Positions 1 to 62,494 are shown, counted from the stretch's first letter. The stretch: 64,000 nt of DNA from Planctomycetota bacterium (GCA_021827645.1 JAKAVA010000009.1:1-64000), one strand, 5' to 3'. Made by a program: numbers and translations. The notes: a model not told the origin generated them from the letters alone.

Positions 1-422
1 AAAAAGCACAATATTTTAGTGACCACACATAAATACGAAAAAATGCACTTAACCAAAGGCAAAACAATAAGTTACGTCAAAACCGCATCTGGAACATCCG
101 TTAAACGGCCTCAAGATGTAATAACCGATGAAATCATAACGCGCGGGCGCGATGGGCGGAAGCTGCCGCATGATTGCCGCACCATCGATCTGCTCCTGAA
201 AATCCAATCGACAGATCAGAATCTACACGCCCCAAAAATCCCCGCCAGATGCACTTCGTCGGACGTTCACCGAAAATCCGCCTCCAGCCTCAGCTCGCCG
301 GCTCGGCCAATGGCAGGCATGGCCCATCGCCGTTACGACTCTCGTTGGCGACGCCGTTAAGAACGCCGGAGCCGGGCTCCGCTGCGTGCACTAAATGGGT
401 TGCCGTTGCAGCTGGCGCCCGC
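1..422. other. Left-edge stretch without a supported gene; holds a leader repeat
   Basis: No reading frame here looks like a protein. The first ~130 bases are clearly more AT-rich than what follows. Bases 97-161 hold one copy of the leader repeat described separately, pointing leftward out of the window. Bases ~155-262 continue as a diverged copy of 58790-58945. A small hairpin, GGAGC-CGG-GCTCC, lies near 366-378 downstream of the minus-strand gene that ends at 423, but it has no T-run. Confidence 0.5.
97..161 (-). promoter_or_regulatory. Leader repeat copy L1 (promoter plus GAGG), diverged
   Basis: On the minus strand there is TTCCGC (156-161), a 17-base spacer, TATGAT (133-138), then GAGG (109-112) and an ATG at 95-97. 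Bases 109-144 match the copies at 57439 and 58744 at 29 of 36 positions, counted by hand. The ATG opens only six codons, so either the cargo is degenerate or the true start lies elsewhere, beyond the left edge. Confidence 0.5.
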
Positions 423-1104: not shown

Positions 1105-1968
1105 CTATCCATAGACCAATCCCCTCGGCGGCGCCTTTGGATCTGCGTGGGCGAAAAGAATTGCGAGCAGCCTCATTACCACGCTCACAGGCACGCCTTT
1201 AGCCTCAAACGCCCTCGGGATTTGAGTGGTTATCAAGCGACCCGCTGGGCTGAACCACCCCAAGACGTAGCCATCGACGGCAATCCGCCGCCCGGCGCCC
1301 AACGCCCCAGCAGCGAAAATTATCGTCAAGCCGTTCAGGTTCTTGTACACGTACGGCCGGCGCCATCCCACGTGGGTCACCTTCTCAAGCAGGCACGTGG
1401 CGCTGATCCTCCATTGGGTTCCAAAGCCCCACGACGGGTCCTGGGAATTTCGGTTATTCACGATAGCCAACCACATCGCCAAGTCGCTGCCGAAGTGCCT
1501 ACGGAACGCCGCGGCACTGTTGAAGAACCGCTTGTAGACCCTGCTGAGCCCAAACCTGCGTCGGGCCTTGGATGCCCAAGCCGGCGGTTCGAGCCCGGGC
1601 ATGTAAAGCTTTAGTCGCACCAACCGCCCATGGTACGGGGCACGCACAATGAGGCGACTGATGCCTGAGTAATGGTATCGGCCGTTGGCTCGCAGTGGAG
1701 CCGAAATCACCCTGTAGGCCCATTGCTTCGGCACCCTCGTTGTAAACCAAAACAGGTTCACCCGGTTCGAGAAATCCACGTTTCGTGGCGGAAGAAGCGT
1801 CCGGACGCGTGGTTCCACGCCATGGTCGAGTACCCACTCTTTGCGCCATCTACGGACGTGTTGACAAAATACCGCGAGCCCCCCAGCAACAGCCATGATG
1901 ATCGCAACGACCGCCGCCGCAAGAATTTCGGCCGGCCGGGCTCGGTTCTTTTCTTTCTTCCCTGCCAT
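1105..1968 (-). CDS. Membrane-anchored protein coupled to an RHS tail; possible immunity protein
   Basis: This is a 287-residue protein of no family I recognise. It begins MAGKKEK, followed by one hydrophobic segment (about residues 14-36) and a long basic, aromatic-rich domain, so it is probably inserted once in the inner membrane. The ATG at 1968 shares one base with the TGA of the preceding RHS-tail gene (TGATG) and has GGAGG at 1973-1977, five bases upstream, so the two are translationally coupled. A gene placed like this after an RHS C-terminus is usually its immunity gene; that is an inference from known RHS loci. The gene at 59777-60949 also begins MAGK plus a membrane segment and is coupled in the same way. 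Sequence similarity between the two bodies is weak at best by eye. Confidence 0.65.
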   Translation of the reverse strand: MAGKKEKNRARPAEILAAAVVAIIMAVAGGLAVFCQHVRRWRKEWVLDHGVEPRVRTLLPPRNVDFSNRVNLFWFTTRVPKQWAYRVISAPLRANGRYHYSGISRLIVRAPYHGRLVRLKLYMPGLEPPAWASKARRRFGLSRVYKRFFNSAAAFRRHFGSDLAMWLAIVNNRNSQDPSWGFGTQWRISATCLLEKVTHVGWRRPYVYKNLNGLTIIFAAGALGAGRRIAVDGYVLGWFSPAGRLITTQIPRAFEAKGVPVSVVMRLLAILFAHADPKAPPRGLVYG

Positions 1969-2834
1969 CAATACCTCCACGAACCAGGCTTGATCTTGCC
2001 GAACTGTTTTCCCAGGGAGAACAGTGGTATTGGTATCCCAAAATAAGCGGGCGCCAACGTAATGGCTCCCGCGAAGGCGTAATGGAACGTATGGAAGGCG
2101 CTTGAAGCTATCGGCTGGCCGTCGTCATGGGCAAGCGACCCCACGCTTCCGTCAATCAGGCCGGTGAAGGTCTCGGAATTCTCATCGTAAACGATGTAAA
2201 GATTCGCAGTGATCGTCCGCATGCAGCCGGTGCGTTTGTCCTTGACCTTTCCCTGCCAAAACCAAACCTCGGTCTCTTTGTCATCGAATCGGGTATTGCT
2301 GAGGTTTTTCCACACACCCTTTAAGTAGTGCTTGGCAACGCCCTTCGCCACCTTTTTCGCAGACGGGGTGATCCCCTTCGCCGCGCCAATCGGGGAGGTT
2401 ATGAGGTTGATGCCAGCCGCGAGGGCCGCTGACCCGGCCCTTTCGAGGTTGAGTTCGTACGATACAAACGCGGCCGCTCCCTCCTTCGTCCAACCTGGCC
2501 CGTTGGTGGAGCCATCCGACCAAAGCCTCTCCACCACGGCGTGCTCCAATGAGTCCATGTCGCCGCCTGTCATCGTGTACTTAAGCCCCCCCGGATCCAC
2601 ATTCCCCACCGGCGAGGAATCGACGAATTGGTAGGTATTCGCCCCGTTGATGTAGTGGGCCGGGTCCTGCTCCATCCAGCGCCCGGGGCTCGGCGAATAA
2701 TCGCGGTTGCGTTCATAGTACAGCCCCGTCACCGCATCCAGCGTCAACCCCTGATACAGATGATTTATCGGCGGTTGCGTACGGCGGCGGCCCGCTTCCG
2801 ACTCGTGCATTGATTTTTCATTGGTCGCAACCAT
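1968..2834 (-). CDS. RHS repeat-associated core fragment with variable C-terminal domain
   Basis: This 288-residue protein carries only the end of an RHS/YD-repeat protein. Residues ~25-85 match the RHS-associated core: YQG-LTLDAVTGLYYERNRDY, GRW-EQDP, N-Y-FV-SSPV and the closing DPGGL. In full RHS proteins this motif marks the junction to a variable, often toxic, C-terminus. About 200 residues follow here, with Ala/Gly-rich hydrophobic stretches near residues 130-155 and 250-275 that could be membrane-active. I cannot assign a toxin family. The large upstream RHS shell is missing, and the frame opens just behind its own promoter-like leader (2832-2893), so this is an orphan tip cassette or a truncated gene. 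Its stop overlaps the next gene by one base. Confidence 0.75.
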   Translation of the reverse strand: MVATNEKSMHESEAGRRRTQPPINHLYQGLTLDAVTGLYYERNRDYSPSPGRWMEQDPAHYINGANTYQFVDSSPVGNVDPGGLKYTMTGGDMDSLEHAVVERLWSDGSTNGPGWTKEGAAAFVSYELNLERAGSAALAAGINLITSPIGAAKGITPSAKKVAKGVAKHYLKGVWKNLSNTRFDDKETEVWFWQGKVKDKRTGCMRTITANLYIVYDENSETFTGLIDGSVGSLAHDDGQPIASSAFHTFHYAFAGAITLAPAYFGIPIPLFSLGKQFGKIKPGSWRY

Positions 2835-2893
2835 ACCAGCCCCAACATGTCAGTTACTACGGAAACCATAACGCGCGGGGCAGGCGGAATCAA
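2832..2893 (-). promoter_or_regulatory. Leader repeat copy L2, promoter of the RHS tail
   Basis: On the minus strand there is TTGATT (2888-2893), a 17-base spacer, TATGGT (2865-2870), then the ATG of the RHS tail at 2834, 31 bases from the edge of the -10. The GCGCGTTAT block just upstream of the -10 is shared with the copies at 57 and 58 kb. The segment between -10 and ATG has diverged and has only a weak GGGG as ribosome-binding site. Confidence 0.5.
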
Positions 2894-3049
2894 ACTGCGG
2901 TCGAGATGCGCCCCCTCAATTTCCTCTGCGAATGTTATTTATCTCCGCGGTAGGAATAGCCACTCACCCCATGCGCCAGCATGAACGTGCTTGCTCAACT
3001 TTCTTCTGTTCAACTTTCACCTCTCTGGCGGCCCGGCCGCCCGTCCCCC

Positions 3050-3141
3050 GCGGTTAAATCGGTTTCTCTCCCTTTCCCTGCAGTTGGCAGTCATTCATCG
3101 CGGTGGCAACCGGTGGAATAAATCCACCGGCTCGCATTCGC
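3050..3141 (+). repeat. Inverted-repeat element, left copy (partner at 57261-57370)
   Basis: Bases 3050-3070 are the exact reverse complement of 57350-57370 (21 bases). After a two-base insertion, TTTCCCTGCAG (3073-3083) matches again. Further along, TTCATCGCGGT and AAATCCACCG-CTCGCATT-GC match with small gaps. No gene lies in 2894-3198 apart from this element and the metF promoter at its right end. Confidence 0.7.
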
Positions 3142-3198
3142 AATAGTCGTGCCTCAACTGCTCTGTCGGCGCAGCCTGGCCCCCGGCGGCGGTACGAT

Positions 3199-3270: not shown

Positions 3271-4176
3271 ATGCACATAAATGACATCTTTGCCCGCGAC
3301 GGAACCACGTTTTCGTTTGAATTCTTCCCGCCGAAGTCGGATGCGGCCGCGGAGCAGCTTTTCGCGCATATCGCCCGGCTGGAGAGTCTCAAGCCATCAT
3401 TTGTGTCCGTGACGTACGGCGCCGGGGGCTCAAGTCGGCAGCGGACGCATGATCTGGTGGTGCGCCTCAAGGACCGCACCACGCTCACGCCCGTGCCGCA
3501 CCTGACCTGCGTCTGCCATACCGAAGCGGAGATTGCATCGATTTTGGATCAATACGCGGCGCACGGCATTGACAATATATTGGCGCTGGGGGGCGATCCG
3601 CCCAAAGACATGCCGAACCATGATCGCGGCAAAGACGTTTTTGCCCATGCAGCGGATCTGGTGGCGTTCATTCGCCGGTGCCGGACATCCGATCCACGCG
3701 GTTTTGGCATCGGCGTGGCGGGTTTTCCCGAGGGGCATCCGGCAACACCAAATCGGCTGCTGGAAATGGACCATCTCAAGGCGAAGGTGGATGCGGGGGC
3801 GGACTATATCTGCACGCAGCTCTTTTTTGATAATCACGATTTTTACGACTTCCGTGAACGCTGTGAGTTGGCGGGCATCAAGGTGCCGATCATCGCGGGG
3901 ATCATGCCGATTACTTCCGCCAATAGCCTGAGGCGAATGGCGGAAACGGCCTTGGGGGCGCATTATCCCGCCAAACTGCTCCGGGCCATCAGTCGGGCCG
4001 GGGCTGATCCGCAGGCCATCGCCCGGGTGGGAATTCACTGGGCCACCGAACAGTGCCGCGATCTGCTCGACCATCAGGTGCGGGGCATTCATTTTTATAC
4101 CTTGAATAACTCCGAGGCGACGCTTCAGATTTATCAAAATCTCGGTGTGGCGGACAGCTACCAATTGAGGCGATAG
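3271..4176 (+). CDS. metF: Methylenetetrahydrofolate reductase
   Basis: This 301-residue cytoplasmic flavoprotein reduces 5,10-methylene-THF to 5-methyl-THF, which feeds methionine synthesis. The N-terminal FSFEFFPPK block is the family signature. SVTYGAGGSS follows near residues 49-58, HLTCV near 76 and ALGGDPP near 107-113, in the order seen in MetF TIM barrels. QLFFDN near residue 190 and PIIAGIMPI in the C-terminal half are also typical. Length is normal and no domain is missing. It stands 74 bases upstream of pheT on the same strand; the two may be co-transcribed, though they are functionally unrelated. The start is the ATG that gives MHINDIF at the expected family N-terminus. Confidence 0.95.
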   Translation: MHINDIFARDGTTFSFEFFPPKSDAAAEQLFAHIARLESLKPSFVSVTYGAGGSSRQRTHDLVVRLKDRTTLTPVPHLTCVCHTEAEIASILDQYAAHGIDNILALGGDPPKDMPNHDRGKDVFAHAADLVAFIRRCRTSDPRGFGIGVAGFPEGHPATPNRLLEMDHLKAKVDAGADYICTQLFFDNHDFYDFRERCELAGIKVPIIAGIMPITSANSLRRMAETALGAHYPAKLLRAISRAGADPQAIARVGIHWATEQCRDLLDHQVRGIHFYTLNNSEATLQIYQNLGVADSYQLRR

Positions 4177-56738: not shown

Positions 56739-57113
56739 TCAGAGCTGACTTCGAAGCACCATGGTTTTGAGCGGACGATTGTCGGCGTCCACCAGCAGAA
56801 CACCAGCCTGATAGGTTTGTGCCTCTTCCAAGGTCATCTGGGCGAAAGCCATGATGATAATTTTCTCTCCCGGTTTGACCAGATGCGCCGCCGCTCCGTT
56901 GATGCCGACAACGCCCGTCCCTTTTTCGCCGGCGATGATGTAGGTTTCAAAACGGACGCCGTTGTGGATATCCGCAACCAGCACACGTTCATTGGGCAGC
57001 AGGCCGCTTTTTTTCAGCAGGTCGGTATCAATGGTGATGCTGCCCACATAATCGCGATTTGCCTGAGTAATGATGGCCCCATGGATTTTTGCACGCAACA
57101 ATGTTACCAACAT
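56739..57113 (-). CDS. panD: Aspartate 1-decarboxylase proenzyme
   Basis: This enzyme makes beta-alanine from aspartate for pantothenate and coenzyme A. The 124-residue length is normal. Autocleavage occurs at the Gly24-Ser25 bond in YVGSIT, which leaves the pyruvoyl group on Ser25. RAKIHGA near the N-terminus, NG-RFETY (~residues 50-56) and GINGAAAHL are family blocks. ATG 57113 was used; the TTG immediately before would add one residue. It borders the right accessory strip. No panB or panC is nearby. It is probably co-transcribed with the two protease-type genes that follow. Confidence 0.95.
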   Translation of the reverse strand: MLVTLLRAKIHGAIITQANRDYVGSITIDTDLLKKSGLLPNERVLVADIHNGVRFETYIIAGEKGTGVVGINGAAAHLVKPGEKIIIMAFAQMTLEEAQTYQAGVLLVDADNRPLKTMVLRSQL

Positions 57114-57260
57114 CAATCCTGTTCCCGACGAACCAACCGAAACGCGAAGACCTTCTCTTCCGCACCGTTATATCCTAATGGGGAAGTGGGCGATTCGTCG
57201 AGCCATCGGCGATTTTGCCTCATGCGGCCGCGCCGACAGAGCAGGTGAATCACGATTAGG
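57114..57260. other. Upstream region of panD
   Basis: TATAAC near 57166-57171 on the minus strand could be a -10, but no matching -35 was seen. Nothing else is recognised before the repeat element at 57261. Confidence 0.25.
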
Positions 57261-57370
57261 GCAAATGCGAGTCGGTGGATTTAATCCGCCGGCGGCCACC
57301 GCGGTGAATAGCTGCTGACCGCGATGAATAGCCGTTGGCTGCAGGGAAAGAGAGAAACCGATTTAACCGC
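57261..57370 (-). repeat. Inverted-repeat element, right copy (partner at 3050-3141)
   Basis: Bases 57350-57370 are the exact reverse complement of 3050-3070; 57339-57349 and several shorter blocks down to GCAAATGCGAG at 57261 also match. This copy contains a doubled unit, ACCGCGGTGAATAGC then ACCGCGATGAATAGC (57298-57332), of which the left copy has one. It continues at 57366-57394 into GCAGGGG-CTCAGAGG-TTCGCAGAGG, a quasi-repeat. Confidence 0.7.
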
Positions 57371-57430
57371 AGGGGACTCAGAGGTTCGCAGAGGCCGGGG
57401 TTATGGGGGGCGTAGGCCGACAGCTGCGAC

Positions 57431-57472
57431 CATAAGGGCCTCAAAATGGAATTTACAATGGAATCATAACGC
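57431..57472 (-). promoter_or_regulatory. Leader repeat copy R1, without a cargo gene
   Basis: Bases 57439-57472 are identical to 58744-58777 (34 bases). On the minus strand they give TATGAT (57463-57468), then GAGG (57439-57442), five bases, and ATG at 57431-57433. That ATG opens only ten codons before TAA, after which the inverted-repeat element begins. Confidence 0.55.
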
Positions 57473-57500
57473 GCCGGGGCAAAGTCCGCGGCGGCGTTCT

Positions 57501-58736
57501 TCAGCCGACGGTCTCCCCTTTGTGCGGGCCGTAAAGCACCTCGCCGTTCTCGGTTACCAAGCTTGCCATCCAATATCGGTATCGGTGGCGCCTTTTTGTG
57601 TCAGGGAAGAACACGCGAGCTACACCGCCGCGGAAATCTCCGCCGTGCGGAAAGATTGGCGGAAGCCTGAAGTTCCCGGCCCTGTCAACGTACCCGAACC
57701 GGAGTTCGCCCTGTCGCTTTACGGCGACGCGCGCAAGGCCACCTTTGAACCCACTCGGCTTGGCTACCCTGCGTCCGCCACCCTTTTTTCCATGGTCGTA
57801 AATGCAGGACACGAATTTTGGCTCAAATGCGTACTCTCCCTTTTTGTTGATCGCCCCCCAAAGCCGCCCAATACGCACCCACGCGAGCCCCTCCGAAAAA
57901 AACTCGCAGTCTCCGAACTTCGGCTCGGCGAGGAATTCGCCTTTTTTGTCGATGAGCCCCCAGAGGCGGCCGACACGCACCCACGCCACGCCTCCCTCGA
58001 AGCCGCTGCTGGCCACGAACCGAGGTTCAATAACGACCCTGCCCTCCGTATCCATAAAGCCCAGGCGTCCGCCTTCCCAGAACCCCACGACCCCCTCCTG
58101 GAAATCGGTTTTGAACCGCCGGCGGCGCGTCGGCCCGAACCTCATTTTGAAATCTCTGTCAAAGAATCCGTTAACGTTGCCCAGCTTAAAATATGCCAAG
58201 CCATGGGCGAAACCTCGCGTGAAGCTGTAGCATGGCTCGATAAGTAGTTCGCCTTTCCGATCAATAAATCCCCATGCATCCTCGTCAACCATTGCGGCTG
58301 CCACGCCGTCGGTGAAGTCACCGACCGTCTGGAACTTGGGCGGGATCACGACCTCGCCGGCCAAGTTGACCCGGCCAACGTAGCCCCCCTCGGCCGCGGC
58401 ACACCAAAGCTGGTCCCCCGTGTAGAACATATCGGTAAATCTCGGCGGCACGAGGAACCTCCCATCGGTGCCAATGATGCCGTATTTGCCGCCGACGGAG
58501 ACAACGGCCGTTCCGTCCTCGAACTCACTGACGTTGTCAAATTGCGGCGGTATGGCGACCTCGCCGCGGCTATCCAAGTAGCCCTCCCTGCCCTTGCCGC
58601 GCCCAAAGTACCAAGGCACCAAGGTTACGCCGCGGCCACCGGCTGCGCACGCCGTAGCGCCTTCCGCTCGGTCATGGCTATCCCCAGCCGCCGCTCTCCC
58701 GTCCGGTTCCAATAATACTTTTCTGATCACGACCAT
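57501..58736 (-). CDS. WG beta-repeat protein
   Basis: A 411-residue protein made of about nine WG (KWG-type) repeats of ~35-45 residues. Typical units read GKYGIIGTDGRFLVPPRF, AWGFIDRKGELLIEP, RLGFMDTEGRVVIEPRF, RLWGLIDKKGEFLAEPKF and RLWGAINKKGEYAFEPKF. Such repeats are thought to form beta-rich scaffolds; no enzymatic role is known to me. No signal peptide or membrane segment is visible, and a ~35-residue Ala/Gly/Asp-rich stretch precedes the repeats. ATG 58736 is fixed by leader repeat R2, whose GAGG lies seven bases upstream. It is a stand-alone cargo within the right accessory strip, whose other genes look like RHS-type effector and membrane proteins. Confidence 0.85.
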   Translation of the reverse strand: MVVIRKVLLEPDGRAAAGDSHDRAEGATACAAGGRGVTLVPWYFGRGKGREGYLDSRGEVAIPPQFDNVSEFEDGTAVVSVGGKYGIIGTDGRFLVPPRFTDMFYTGDQLWCAAAEGGYVGRVNLAGEVVIPPKFQTVGDFTDGVAAAMVDEDAWGFIDRKGELLIEPCYSFTRGFAHGLAYFKLGNVNGFFDRDFKMRFGPTRRRRFKTDFQEGVVGFWEGGRLGFMDTEGRVVIEPRFVASSGFEGGVAWVRVGRLWGLIDKKGEFLAEPKFGDCEFFSEGLAWVRIGRLWGAINKKGEYAFEPKFVSCIYDHGKKGGGRRVAKPSGFKGGLARVAVKRQGELRFGYVDRAGNFRLPPIFPHGGDFRGGVARVFFPDTKRRHRYRYWMASLVTENGEVLYGPHKGETVG

Positions 58737-58796
58737 AACGCAACCTCAAAATGGAATTTACAATGGAATCATAACGCCCCGTGGCGTGGCACGGAA
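58734..58796 (-). promoter_or_regulatory. Leader repeat copy R2, promoter and RBS of the WG-repeat gene
   Basis: On the minus strand TTCCGT (58791-58796), 17 bases, TATGAT (58768-58773), GAGG (58744-58747), seven bases, ATG (58734-58736). Bases 58744-58777 are identical to R1. Confidence 0.6.
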
Positions 58797-59090
58797 GCTG
58801 CCGTGATGCACGGTTGCCGTAAAATCGGCCCGCGCGGGCATTGTAAACTTCCTGCCGCGCTGGTTGCCCGATCAACTCCTGAAAATCGAATCGGCTGGCC
58901 AGAGCCTTCATACCGCAAAAATCCGCGCCAGATACACTTCTCCGGATGCTTGTTAGCGCACTCGCCGCCCAGGTTCGCAAATACCCAACAATTGGCAGCG
59001 GCCCAGGCAGACTAGGTGGTGCCCCTTTGCTGACCGTGGTGCTCCCAGCCCCCACCGCCCTGCCCCTATCGCCGCCGGTTCTTGTATCGG
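58797..59090. repeat. Diverged copy of the left-edge segment
   Basis: Bases ~58885-58945 (CTCCTGAAAATC-AATCG, then CAAAAATCC-CGCCAGAT-CACTTC) match 193-262 with substitutions and gaps. The shared segment thus reaches well beyond the 60-base leader. No gene is supported; a 186-codon frame through here has no protein-like pattern. Confidence 0.45.
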
Positions 59091-59450
59091 CTAATTTCCG
59101 AAATAACCCTGCAACGGTGGAGCTACGCACCCAACCACCACAAAATGCGCAACCGCAAACGCTACCAGCGCCGACGCCGTCGATGCGCCCAGCCGGCTGC
59201 GGAACGCAACGGCCGCAGCCGCACCCAACAGGACACACAGCAGGGTTTCGATGAGCGGGAAACCCCCGCCAAGCGCAAAGTAGACTGCGCGTGCGTCGCC
59301 ATACCCTGGCACGCTGGGCACCGCCATACTGTATGCCGCGTACAGGCTGATCCCAATGCGCACCAGCTGCACTACCGGGGGTATATTAAGCGTCCAAAAT
59401 GCAATTTTCGCTCTGTTGACCAGATAGCACCTCACCGTATCTACGGCCAC
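59091..59450 (-). CDS. Small membrane protein, tandem paralogue b
   Basis: About 119 residues with three hydrophobic segments: FWTLNIPPVVQLVRIGISLYAA, ALGGGFPLIETLLCVLLGAAAAVA and ALVAFAVAHFVVVGCV. The region between helices 2 and 3 reads FRSRLGASTASAL, almost the same as LRSRWGASTASAL in the preceding gene, and NRAKIAFWTLN parallels KKKIIWWTLN. The two are clear tandem duplicates that have diverged. The GTG at 59450 overlaps the end of the first copy by ten bases and is the likeliest start, though GTG 59435 is possible. The frame continues open upstream but without protein-like sequence. Function unknown; it follows the coupled MAGK-type gene. Confidence 0.6.
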   Translation of the reverse strand: MAVDTVRCYLVNRAKIAFWTLNIPPVVQLVRIGISLYAAYSMAVPSVPGYGDARAVYFALGGGFPLIETLLCVLLGAAAAVAFRSRLGASTASALVAFAVAHFVVVGCVAPPLQGYFGN

Positions 59451-59773
59451 ATTCCCACACACGCCAAAGTAAAAAAGTGGGCGACAGCCAGCGCCGCCAA
59501 CGCCGACGCCGTCGACGCACCCCAGCGACTCCGGAGCGCCACCGCGGCGATCGCTCCCAACACGGTGCCGACCAAAGTGGCGGCTATCGGGAAGCCGACG
59601 CCAAGGCCGAGATACATCGGCCACGCTCGGTTCACCTTCCAGAGTTCCAGCCCCAAGGGTCGCAAGTGGTGCCTGATACGGTATACGTGGTAGAAACCGT
59701 AGGCAATGTAAATCAGTTGCATCGTGGGCAGGATGTTCAGCGTCCACCATATGATTTTCTTCTTTTCCACCAA
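59441..59773 (-). CDS. Small membrane protein, tandem paralogue a
   Basis: A 110-residue protein with three hydrophobic segments (about residues 8-27, 48-75 and 84-105) and a short basic N-terminus (MVEKKKIIWW). It is a paralogue of the next gene. TTG 59773 or GTG 59770 could start it; AAGGGG at 59781-59786, inside the end of the previous gene, would serve either. It begins four bases after the stop of the MAGK-type gene, so the three are one transcription unit. A tandem pair of small membrane proteins behind a candidate effector pair could be extra immunity or membrane components; that is a guess from position. Confidence 0.65.
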   Translation of the reverse strand: MVEKKKIIWWTLNILPTMQLIYIAYGFYHVYRIRHHLRPLGLELWKVNRAWPMYLGLGVGFPIAATLVGTVLGAIAAVALRSRWGASTASALAALAVAHFFTLACVGMWP

Positions 59774-59776
59774 GCT

Positions 59777-60949
59777 CTACCCCTTATTCCTTTGACGTCC
59801 GAGCGGGGCCCATTGCGGGGTTTCACGGCCCGTGGGCTGCCCACTGCGCGCCGGTTCCGCCCCTACCTTTGGCCTTTGCAGCCAATACGCCACAACGGCA
59901 GACTTGAGCAACTCCAGCCTTTCCCGCAGCGGTGGGAGTGAGTAGAAGAAGTTCAAATATCCGCCCCTGACAGCCATGCCGTGCCGGTTGTAGATCGTCA
60001 TAAGCATTTCGTGGCCGTAGGTCTGCAGGTACATGGTGCGGTGCTTGGGCAGTGCGATCCACACGACCGGGCCCGGGCTTATGGGGGGACCGCTCGCGAT
60101 AAGGAGCCCGTCCCACACTGCCTCGTCGAGGTTCTTAATCATACGGATTCGCGATCCGCTGGTCGCGATGACCTGATGAGCGATCTGAATGTCCGTCAGG
60201 CGGCGCAGCTTGCCCAAAATAATCCGGTCCACGAGCCGCTTGCAGCTTGCGTCCGAGAGCCCGTATCGGCGCATCATGGTCTGGAGACGTATTAGATATA
60301 CACTGCCTCCGTGGAGCATGCTTTCACGCTCGGTCCAAGGCGGCGAATCACCGCCGCCGACGATGTAGCGCCCCGGCCCGGTAGCGTCGTACTCGGGCAG
60401 CGGCAACGGTGTGCGCCTTGACGGGTTGTACCGGAGGTAGCAGCGTATAACCCGCGCACCGCGTGGCACGAGGTAATAGTTGGCGGGGTCCACCCAGAAA
60501 ACGATGTATCCCTTCGGCCGACGCAGCCACCGCAATGGCGAGAGATCGTGGACGTGCCTCGCCTGCCGACCCGCACTCGATCTCTTCACCCTCGTCCAAT
60601 ACCTGACGGCCTTTACGTTGAAATTCCCAACGCAGAAACTGTCACCGTATATCCGCGTAAGGCCGGCCCGCGGGATGCCGAAAGAGAAGCCACCCACCAA
60701 TATTCGCACCACGCGGCGCAACGGCCGAAAATGGCGTATCCGAAGTTGGGGCGCCGGGGAGAAAGGTAGGCCCAACCGGACGCGATCGAGGGCGTAGGGA
60801 TTGTGCCTCCCGAACAGCGACTGGTAAACGTACCAGCCCGCTCGGTGCAGTTTCGGACGCGGCCTGAGCAGGAAGGCAAACGCGAGCGCCAGCGCCCCGG
60901 CGGCCACAACGATTGCGATGAGCCAGCGTCGGTGAGCCTTGCCTGCCAT
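59777..60949 (-). CDS. Membrane-anchored protein coupled to an orphan cassette ORF
   Basis: A 390-residue protein of unknown family. It begins MAGKAHRR, has one membrane helix (~residues 9-27: LIAIVVAAGALALAFAFLL) and a large basic, Tyr/Arg-rich domain, then a Pro/Gly-rich polar tail. The ATG at 60949 shares one base with the TAA of the preceding ORF (TAATG). This is the arrangement seen at 1968, where the coupled protein also starts MAGK followed by a helix. Any homology between the large domains of the two is too weak to claim by eye. I infer a role tied to the preceding small ORF, possibly immunity. Two small membrane proteins follow four bases downstream. Confidence 0.65.
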   Translation of the reverse strand: MAGKAHRRWLIAIVVAAGALALAFAFLLRPRPKLHRAGWYVYQSLFGRHNPYALDRVRLGLPFSPAPQLRIRHFRPLRRVVRILVGGFSFGIPRAGLTRIYGDSFCVGNFNVKAVRYWTRVKRSSAGRQARHVHDLSPLRWLRRPKGYIVFWVDPANYYLVPRGARVIRCYLRYNPSRRTPLPLPEYDATGPGRYIVGGGDSPPWTERESMLHGGSVYLIRLQTMMRRYGLSDASCKRLVDRIILGKLRRLTDIQIAHQVIATSGSRIRMIKNLDEAVWDGLLIASGPPISPGPVVWIALPKHRTMYLQTYGHEMLMTIYNRHGMAVRGGYLNFFYSLPPLRERLELLKSAVVAYWLQRPKVGAEPARSGQPTGRETPQWAPLGRQRNKG

Positions 60950-61269
60950 TACCCATTAACCCCGTTCAGAATGTGTATCTGCCCCGGAGTGTGCATGGCG
61001 TTGATGAACGCCTGCTGGTTGGGCCCCAGGTACAGCCCCGCACCGTTATCGGCATTCTGCATCTCGTGGAGCGCCCAAGCTGGGGAGAACGCGGTATCTG
61101 TGCTGCCCGGGCCGCCGTAGGGGTTGCGTTCCTCCATCGTCTGCCAGCCGAACCAGCAACTGTCCGTCGTCCCGTTGGGGATTTTGTTATCGCCGGCGCG
61201 AAGATCGGCGCGGGCAAAAGGGCTCTTCACCTTATCTTCAGCGGTTAATATTTCAGCCAATGCGACCAT
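60949..61269 (-). CDS. Orphan small protein, possible effector tip
   Basis: A 106-residue protein that I do not recognise. It has no signal peptide, no membrane helix and no RHS core motif. The C-terminal half (PAWALHEMQNADNGAGLYLG) contains His, Glu and Asn in a spacing that could be catalytic or metal-binding, but this is not a known signature to me. It opens directly behind leader repeat R3, with GAGG seven bases before ATG 61269. It is coupled by one base to the MAGK-type gene, just as the RHS tail is at the left. It may be the residue of an RHS-type C-terminal cassette whose RHS part has been lost. Confidence 0.55.
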   Translation of the reverse strand: MVALAEILTAEDKVKSPFARADLRAGDNKIPNGTTDSCWFGWQTMEERNPYGGPGSTDTAFSPAWALHEMQNADNGAGLYLGPNQQAFINAMHTPGQIHILNGVNG

Positions 61270-61329
61270 AACGCGGCCTCAAAATGGAATCATTGTCAAA
61301 ATCGTAACGTGTCGAGTTGGTAGGAGCAA
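61267..61329 (-). promoter_or_regulatory. Leader repeat copy R3
   Basis: On the minus strand TTGCTC (61324-61329), 17 bases, TACGAT (61301-61306), GAGG (61277-61280), seven bases, ATG (61267-61269). The first 14 bases from 61277 match R1 and R2 exactly. Then the copies diverge, though the -10 and its neighbouring CGTTA are kept. Confidence 0.55.
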
Positions 61330-61482
61330 ACGGCGGGCGGCGTCCGCGTCCTGTTCGCCGATTACCCGGGTGTTGGCGCATATCTTCTGGTCGCGGCGTT
61401 TGCCAAAAATGTCCGGGAAAACCTCACACGGCGGCGCGACCGCGAATGGAAACGCCTTGGACAAGTCCAGGGCCATTTAATT
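61324..61482 (+). pseudogene. Remnant of a RelE/HigB-type toxin gene
   Basis: Translation from 61324 gives AGGVRVLF, then GAYLLVAAFAKN, then RENLTRRRDREWKRL. This is the order GG-x-RV-x-Y-x...YLL-x-x-x-AKN-x-x-x-x-LT-x-x-x...L found at the C-terminus of RelE/ParE/HigB2-type toxins. A TAG at 61321 lies directly upstream, no start codon precedes the conserved part and the N-terminal half is missing. The break falls against leader repeat R3, so the repeat or an event at it may have removed the 5' end. The frame stays open to 61644 without further resemblance. No antitoxin gene is visible. Confidence 0.42.
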
Positions 61483-61574: not shown

Positions 61575-61633
61575 TTCGGCCATGGATGCGCAGTTCGACA
61601 GCCGCACCGGTGAGTCAGGATGGAGGTGCGTGG

Positions 61634-62494
61634 ATGTCGCTTGAACTATCGGTGCTCGCCAGCGGATCGACCGGGAATTGCTCGCTGATCCGCACGCCGG
61701 CGGGAATGTTTCTTCTGGACGCGGGAATCGGGCCACGGACTGCGTCCGGGCGCATGAACGGATTGGGAGTGGCCGTAGGCGACATCAAGGCTCTCTGCCT
61801 CACCCATCTGGATTGCGACCATTTCACGCCTACCTGGATCAACACCATCATCGAACATCAAATACCCGTTTTCTGCCCGGCCGATCAACTTGCCGATATC
61901 CGATCGCATGCCCGCCGCGCCAAAAAACTCGATGCGTTTGATGCTTTGATCCGCCCGTTTAACGGCGAACCGTTTGAACCGCTGCCCGGAGTTGAATGTC
62001 GCACGATGCGGCTGGCGCACGATCAACAAGGAAGCCATGCCTATCGGATAGCCTGCGGCTCTCATCGGCTTGCCTACGCTACGGATATGGGGCGTGCCCC
62101 GAAGCAACTGATTGAGTTCTTTCTGGGATGCAGCATACTGGCCATCGAGAGTAATTATGATCCGGATATGCAGCTTGGATCGCTCCGCCCGCAACGTCTC
62201 AAGGAGCGGATCATGGGCGGAGCTGGCCATTTATCCAACGCCGAGGCGTTTGCATTGGTGCAGGCGATATTCGATACCACGACGGCACAGAGCGGATCGG
62301 GCCGATTGCCGGCGCATGTGGTGTTGCTGCACCGTTCACGTCAATGCAACTGTCCGGAAATTGTCACACGTCTTTTCTCGTCGGATGAGCGCATCGGATG
62401 CCGACTGACTTTATCCCATCCGTTTGAACGCACCGATTGGCTCAAGCCCGTTGCGAGGCCCGTCCTACCGGGCGAACAACTGCGCCTGTTCTGA
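61634..62494 (+). CDS. MBL-fold metallohydrolase, YycJ/WalJ-like
   Basis: A 286-residue cytoplasmic protein of the metallo-beta-lactamase fold. LASGSTGNCSLI at residues 8-19, LLDAG, ATDMG, GHLSNAEA and the LLHRSRQCNCPE segment follow the YycJ order (a DNA-repair-associated exonuclease family). Two metal-ligand positions differ from the norm. The usual H-x-H-x-D-H reads H58-L-D60-C-D62-H63, and the late ESNHD-type motif reads ESNYD. Metal content or activity may be altered. ATG 61634 has GGAGG seven bases upstream. It converges on holB, 38 bases away. Confidence 0.82.
   Translation: MSLELSVLASGSTGNCSLIRTPAGMFLLDAGIGPRTASGRMNGLGVAVGDIKALCLTHLDCDHFTPTWINTIIEHQIPVFCPADQLADIRSHARRAKKLDAFDALIRPFNGEPFEPLPGVECRTMRLAHDQQGSHAYRIACGSHRLAYATDMGRAPKQLIEFFLGCSILAIESNYDPDMQLGSLRPQRLKERIMGGAGHLSNAEAFALVQAIFDTTTAQSGSGRLPAHVVLLHRSRQCNCPEIVTRLFSSDERIGCRLTLSHPFERTDWLKPVARPVLPGEQLRLF

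Follow-up and report, generated by a model that had tools for sequence, protein, structure and literature searches.

Can a promoter and a start codon be carried from gene to gene as a mobile leader, or does such a leader belong to the genes that it opens? The question is raised by a 64,000-nucleotide stretch from a Planctomycetota bacterium (GCA_021827645.1 JAKAVA010000009.1:1-64000), hereafter the window, where a repeated sequence lies upstream of unrelated genes and was taken, in the initial annotation, for a mobile or recombining expression leader. We find a family of leaders with conserved columns, set in arrays whose terminal repeats point outward, with cargo that differs between strains. 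On comparison of the sequences, the leader is likely to be the conserved 5' unit of a genus-specific family of orphan Rhs tips, lying in arrays with exchanged cassettes. Below, G000 is the genome of the window, G001, G002 and G003 are three congeners, and the binned relative refers to contigs in G014 (Planctomycetota bacterium FK5.bin10, JAJYZF), another metagenome-assembled genome (MAG). All genomes are draft assemblies in which the arrays, being repeats, break contigs, so that arrays are undercounted and cut.

The leader and its copies

The five copies first reported (R1, R2, R3, 97-161 and 2832-2893) were found again at those places, all on the minus strand:

57421..57484 (-), leader R1, body type, ATG at 57433, cargo-less
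58718..58795 (-), leader R2, body type, ATG at 58736, closest copy R1
61247..61330 (-), leader R3, ATG at 61269, -10 element TACGAT
2813..2894 (-), head-type leader, ATG at 2834, adjoining an outward terminal repeat
98..163 (-), decayed leader copy without a start codon, at the contig end

The identity of R1 and R2 over 34 nt held (GCGTTATGATTCCATTGTAAATTCCATTTTGAGG). Its 32-nt core has two matches in the window, with none expected from 100 shuffles, and TTCCATTTTGAGG has 14 exact matches genome-wide and none for the reversed control; the shuffles and the reversed-sequence control rule out chance or low complexity as the source of the repeat. GAGG stands 5 bases before the ATG in R1 and 7 before it in R2 and R3, as described. 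The -10 hexamer TATGAT is present in R1 (starting 35 bases before the ATG) and R2 (37 bases), but is TACGAT in R3. The ATG assigned to each copy is present in R1, R2, R3 and the 2832-2893 copy, but has been lost from the 97-161 copy, which has TTTAACGG where TTTAATGG is expected. The 2832-2893 copy represents a separate "head" subtype, with TTTGATT upstream, TATGGT as its -10 and GGGG as its Shine-Dalgarno (SD) sequence.

When 32 leaders from three species are compared, the columns that never vary include the T, A and T of TAnnnT, the SD core (GAGG or GGGG across species) and ATGGTCG. The -10 begins at a nearly fixed distance from the ATG, 37 bases before it in most copies of this genome and 38-39 before it in those of the congeners. 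A sigma-70-type promoter would have A2 and T6 in its -10 and a -35 at 16-18 nt; a TTG-like -35 stands out in G002 and the head copies, at 16-17 bases, and is weak in R1-R3. These conserved columns would be as expected for a promoter, a ribosome site and a start codon, and the predicted promoter activity is well supported by the comparison.

The leader proved more widespread than had been seen in the window. A blastn search of the genome with an 87-nt consensus gave 40 matches, iterated profiles gave 62 to 66 copies in the stretches examined, and a profile built from 32 sequences gave 70 leaders in this 3.3-Mb genome. The same profile found 13, 31 and 4 leaders in the three congeners, 2 in each of two more distant family members, 64 in G014, and none in 54 of 60 other genomes. 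As a DNA query against 392 genomes of the phylum, the leader had no match beyond this genome. Transfer by phages or plasmids was discarded, as searches of plasmids, phages and IMG/VR with the leader returned no matches, and so was a known RNA element, for lack of a match in Rfam. Two near-identical leaders of C110 (L095 7911 and 10937) are atypical (GGTATATTCCATTAAATCAACTGTTTGCTGAGGCC), with an unusual -10 region and an unchanged SD and start.

The copies in G014 require a separate explanation. The leader contigs binned there are 83-99.9% identical to this genome over kilobases, but the MTHFR protein of G014 is only 74% identical to that of this genome, compared with 92% for the congener G002. 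For this reason the contigs are probably mis-binned DNA from close relatives of this organism, in the MAG or its source sample, and horizontal transfer between genera was not accepted as the source of the many copies. Small leader contigs are numerous in G014 (L172-L182), and one of 4.4 kb is 99.9% identical to C110.

Orphan Rhs tips and other cargo

When translated from the leader ATGs, the commonest product is a short protein whose first 83 residues are conserved and whose remainder is variable. The Rhs core model TIGR03696 was matched by all 56 aligned tips, drawn from this genome, the congeners and related contigs, at E <= 0.01; the tip in the window (1968..2834) scored 60.1 bits against a curated cut-off of 32.5. 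Between paralogues the core is under purifying selection, with a dN/dS of 0.25 in G002 and 0.43 among 25 tips of G000 and the binned relative, which suggests that the frames are in use.

The cargo does vary, as the initial annotation had it: Rhs tips, WG repeats (R2), a novel open reading frame, or ORF (R3), and nothing (R1). The Rhs core is absent downstream of R1 (a 10-codon frame), R2 (WG repeats) and R3 (no Pfam match and no core motif). Simple text rules, under which a few copies with a mis-set ATG count as "other", sort the 63 copies mapped here as follows: 23 carry the Rhs core, another 7 share just the N-terminus, 15 lack cargo or open a very short frame, and the last 18 are "other"; the core is kept in about half of this genome's cargo-bearing copies. 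DNA likeness between copies of the Rhs class extends from -75 to +250 and then collapses sharply. Between non-Rhs copies it covers only -75 to about +10, and the smallest unit common to all copies is therefore the leader.

Since leaders in G001, G002 and G003 nearly always open Rhs tips or tip remnants, the association of leader and tip is the ancestral one. The idea of a leader was to fall if the copies were remnants of a single coding family, and this is half the case: in the congeners the leader nearly always opens Rhs-core genes, and non-Rhs and empty forms occur here. In the tip tree the G002 tips form one clade and the G001 tips another, each genome expanding and homogenising its own set. 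Rhs tips are frequent across the whole family, mostly without this leader. At least four N-terminal classes lie between leader and Rhs core (for example, window 2834, L095 5784 and L101 4489), and there are mosaics between N-terminal tip classes, such as L088 12371 and L101 1404.

Downstream ORFs of the arrays match Sel1, TPR, WG and ankyrin repeats, PT-TG and Ntox33. A toxin and immunity function of the tips and downstream ORFs may be proposed, for which the matches to Ntox24, PT-TG, Ntox33, Sel1 and Ank are hints. A leader-driven ORF of 149 aa (L085 5358-5807, minus strand) carries a WHHIVEQ..NTQNVV motif that recalls HNH-type toxin nucleases, and has no Pfam match.

The two strips of the window, named after the flanking genes panD and MTHFR, contain the following further features:

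56739..57116 (-), panD, conserved strip flank (PF02261)
57229..57393 (-), terminal repeat, downstream end of the panD strip, outward-pointing
57433-57401 (-), R1 product MVAAVGLRPP*, ten codons, followed by the terminal repeat
57501..58736 (-), R2 cargo, WG-repeat protein of 411 aa (PF14903, E 3.6e-60)
59091..59444 (-), small open frame resembling the preceding ORF by eye, no Pfam match
59441..59773 (-), small ORF of 110 aa resembling the next ORF by eye, only a sub-threshold TraL match
59777..60949 (-), ORF of 390 aa that begins where the R3 cargo ORF ends, possibly in one operon with it, no Pfam match
60949..61269 (-), R3 cargo ORF of 106 aa, N-terminal MVALAEILTAEDKVKSPFARADLRAGDN resembling Rhs tips (L101), then unique, no Pfam match
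61586..62494 (+), metallo-beta-lactamase-fold protein, other flank (PF12706), adjoining panD in G003
1105..1980 (-), ORF that overlaps the end of the tip gene and sits where an immunity gene would be (a role suggested by position), no Pfam match
1968..2834 (-), orphan Rhs tip of 288 aa, Rhs core at residues 22-84, then a variable C-terminus (TIGR03696, E 2.3e-16)
3042..3173 (+), terminal repeat, upstream end of the MTHFR strip, outward-pointing
3271..4176 (+), MTHFR gene flanking the left strip (PF02219)

The first 28 residues of the R3 ORF are closely like those of Rhs tips of contig C12. The two adjoining small ORFs of the R3 cassette (59091-59773, minus strand) look like diverged duplicates, membrane-protein-like by eye.

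Arrays, exchange and rival explanations

The strips are bracketed by a repeat of ~140 bases with the hairpin GCCGGTGGA-n-TAAATCCACCGGC, and seven arrays, six of them in this genome and one in the binned relative, have it on both sides. All leaders of one array run in the same direction. The p values that follow are descriptive, since the data that were tested had also served to define the array and leader classes: the terminal repeat points outward in 33 of 33 cases with a nearby leader (p 1e-10); in G000 and the binned relative together, 13 of 18 head-type leaders (TTGAAATGTTGGGGCT) adjoin the upstream repeat, whereas 7 of 68 body-type leaders do so (p 5e-7); and a frame of <60 codons follows 16 of 26 last leaders, versus 4 of 29 internal ones (p 3e-4). 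The terminal repeat was found only in this genome and the binned relative, the congeners having leaders and tips but no repeat. About 30 copies of it (including 57229-57393 and 3042-3173) are present in the genome, with the outer hairpin GCCGGTGGAnTAAATCCACCGGC; its inner part CCTCTGCGnACCTCTGCGTCCCCTGCGGTTAA is also found by itself, in G014 and at one place in G017. A sulfatase gene follows the last leader of one array; it was rejected as cargo because of this position, from which it looks like a host gene at the array edge, and no orthologue was found in five relatives at E 1e-60.

Exchange of cargo can be followed between loci and between strains. For example, C25 and C49, both in this genome, share a cassette of ~1.1 kb at 99% identity from +222 to +1329 after the first ATG, with 9 mismatches by position list and 808 consecutive bases without a mismatch. 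Upstream of +222 they show ordinary paralogue divergence, which puts the junction in the Rhs core, and they diverge again past +1329, which is 11 bases after the ATG of the next leader. The moved unit therefore consisted of a variable tip, its downstream sequence and the next leader. When C49 is compared with the relative binned in G014, the flanks are 97.7-97.9% identical and the cargo is different (3.2 versus 1.9 kb), with only paralogue-like similarity from the -10 of the first leader onward. L077 and L179 share their cargo at 95% from -21 onward, and the DNA upstream is not shared. The panD strip is missing from G003, where 270 bases separate panD from the metallo-beta-lactamase gene, and G002 has a single leader and a different Rhs tip beside that same gene. 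The downstream cargo is strain-variable. A further G002 leader lies near MTHFR (L166 2940-3012), on the opposite side of the gene from the strip in the window.

The notion of a mobile or recombining leader therefore stands in part: cargo is exchanged between loci and strains at junctions at or near the leader, but the data do not show a leader that jumps in front of unrelated genes; the three congeners all have it as the 5' end of a single Rhs-core coding family. The moving unit would be better described as a variable tip, the downstream ORF or ORFs and the next leader, exchanged via repeats that include the Rhs core and the leader.

We propose that the leader comprises a promoter-like site, an SD sequence, a start codon and the first codons of a free-standing Rhs tip gene, which would consist of a short Rhs core and a variable toxin-like C-terminus, followed by one or more downstream ORFs. 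An array would run from an outward inverted terminal repeat through a head leader, cargo, body leader and cargo, often to a last, cargo-less leader. On the simplest and most likely reading, cassettes would be swapped between arrays by homologous recombination or gene conversion via leader and Rhs core, by a machinery that we infer. A swap through the core would retain the N-terminus and one through the leader would bring in a new one, the promoter and start codon staying put while the cargo changes. Deletion between leaders would yield an empty leader, and the WG-repeat, unique and empty forms may all be outcomes of swaps or deletions.

A rival account would be plain expansion of a gene family, in which whole genes were duplicated with their native promoters and then decayed, the non-Rhs cargo being chance neighbours left by deletions. 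The almost exclusive pairing of leaders with Rhs tips in G001-G003, the single clade formed by the tips of each of G002 and G001, and the numerous truncated copies are what it would predict. It does not provide for a block that starts in the Rhs core and ends at the ATG of the next leader (C25/C49), for cargo replaced at the same locus with the junction at the -10 (C49), or for common cargo behind different upstream DNA with the junction at -21 (L077/L179), and we regard it as improbable. Nor does a single expression site fed by silent cassettes, as in phase-variable surface genes, fit well: cargo does vary behind a common 5' region, but a leader and a start codon accompany almost every cassette (66 leaders were mapped), so that no silent store is needed, and of the explanations weighed we give this one the least credence.

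The terminal repeats invite the thought that the whole strip is a transposable element, its ends being acted on in trans by a transposase and its leader-cargo units carried as passengers. Their inverted, outward orientation (33/33 and 8/8), the seven arrays bracketed on both sides and the absence of the panD strip in G003 would suit such an element. However, its ends are ragged and mostly 75-90% alike, no target duplication was identified (none by eye at the panD site), and congeners have leaders and tips without such a repeat. No transposase, recombinase or integrase was found among the 74 array ORFs (25 of 27 families listed), a transposase elsewhere in the genome not having been sought. We consider this explanation unlikely as well. 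Given the terminal repeats, whole strips may still move, but no enzyme, clean ends or target duplication was found for this. The lack of an integrase among the array ORFs also bears on a site-specific, integron-like system with the leader as attachment site. Many arrays have N+1 leaders and the exchanged unit ends at a leader, but the leaders are only partly alike and the junctions are scattered over the -10, the ATG and the Rhs core. As they do not fall at a single nucleotide, a site-specific enzyme is argued against, and an integron-like system seems very unlikely.

Several observations weigh against the proposal of exchanged, leader-driven Rhs tips itself. A generic sigma-70 scan returned no full site at R1-R3 and there is no good -35 there; the miss is due to the weak -35 of these three copies, so that of the "promoter/RBS leader" first described, the multi-copy unit of SD and start codon with a conserved TAnnnT stands and the promoter is predicted. 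A named toxin family was matched in Pfam by only 2 of the 56 tips, both Ntox24. Many copies open very short frames, and decay is therefore common. The strain comparison relies on contigs of a relative that had been binned in another MAG, and the array statistics are descriptive, as stated above. Finally, neighbouring leaders are generally no more alike than random pairs (p 0.17), which leaves tandem duplication unsupported as the general origin of the arrays.

A bolder extension is that the strips are a distinct class of cassette islands, polar arrays bounded by the inverted terminal repeats, in which the leader serves as promoter, start codon and recombination site at once, so that any captured tip would be expressed immediately and the genome would hold dozens of independently expressed orphan Rhs toxins or immunities. 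We put this forward tentatively and with some doubt.

Comparison with known systems

Orphan cdiA-CT/cdiI and rhs-CT modules are generally without translation initiation signals (Poole et al. 2011, PMC3150448; Koskiniemi et al. 2014, PMC3967940). For want of such signals, orphan Rhs and contact-dependent inhibition (CDI) tips are usually taken as silent spares. The arrays described here resemble these modules in having a short Rhs-core remnant, a variable, toxin-like C-terminus and a downstream gene, in being arrayed and in swapping via a conserved core; the conserved core reaches residue 83, with the variable C-terminus after it, as in an orphan rhs-CT. They differ in that known modules lie behind one full-length gene, whereas here nearly every tip is preceded by a promoter-like leader of its own, SD and ATG included, at dozens of loci with inverted terminal repeats.

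Transposons share with the strips the inverted repeats at both ends (33/33 outward, seven brackets); the transposase and the target-site duplication of a transposon were not found, among the array ORFs and by eye at the panD site, respectively, a transposase elsewhere not having been sought. An integron would have a tyrosine integrase and attC sites; no integrase was found among the array ORFs and the junctions lie at several positions, attC structure not having been modelled.

Further parallels come from polymorphic toxins. Some mafB-CT cassettes of Neisseria carry start codons, and these alternative C-terminal cassettes are likewise followed by immunity genes, but they occupy a few islands behind full-length mafB, and the available text of that account describes no promoter leader that is repeated across a genus (Jamet et al. 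2015, PMC4287609). SitAI cassettes of myxobacteria are stand-alone polymorphic toxin cassettes at several genome locations, although SitA has its own lipoprotein signal and is delivered by outer-membrane exchange, and the accessible part of the report does not mention an Rhs core (PMC5562445). Variable toxin domains are replaced from stand-alone cassettes by recombination in polymorphic toxin systems at large; the portion of that survey at hand contains no promoter-bearing leader repeat and no arrays like these from planctomycetes (Zhang et al. 2012, PMC3482391). In the literature searched, outside which most subscription papers lay, we found no description of a genus-wide leader starting nearly every tip in arrays bounded by terminal repeats.

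One genus thus carries seemingly expression-ready tips, with up to 70 leaders per genome and exchange traced to leader and core repeats, and the orphan tip library appears to be expressible without a parent toxin gene. It can therefore be tested whether an orphan tip acts when no full-length Rhs protein is present, and where tip diversity comes from. What sets these arrays apart from the known orphan modules is a leader repeated throughout the genus, by which almost every tip has a start of its own.

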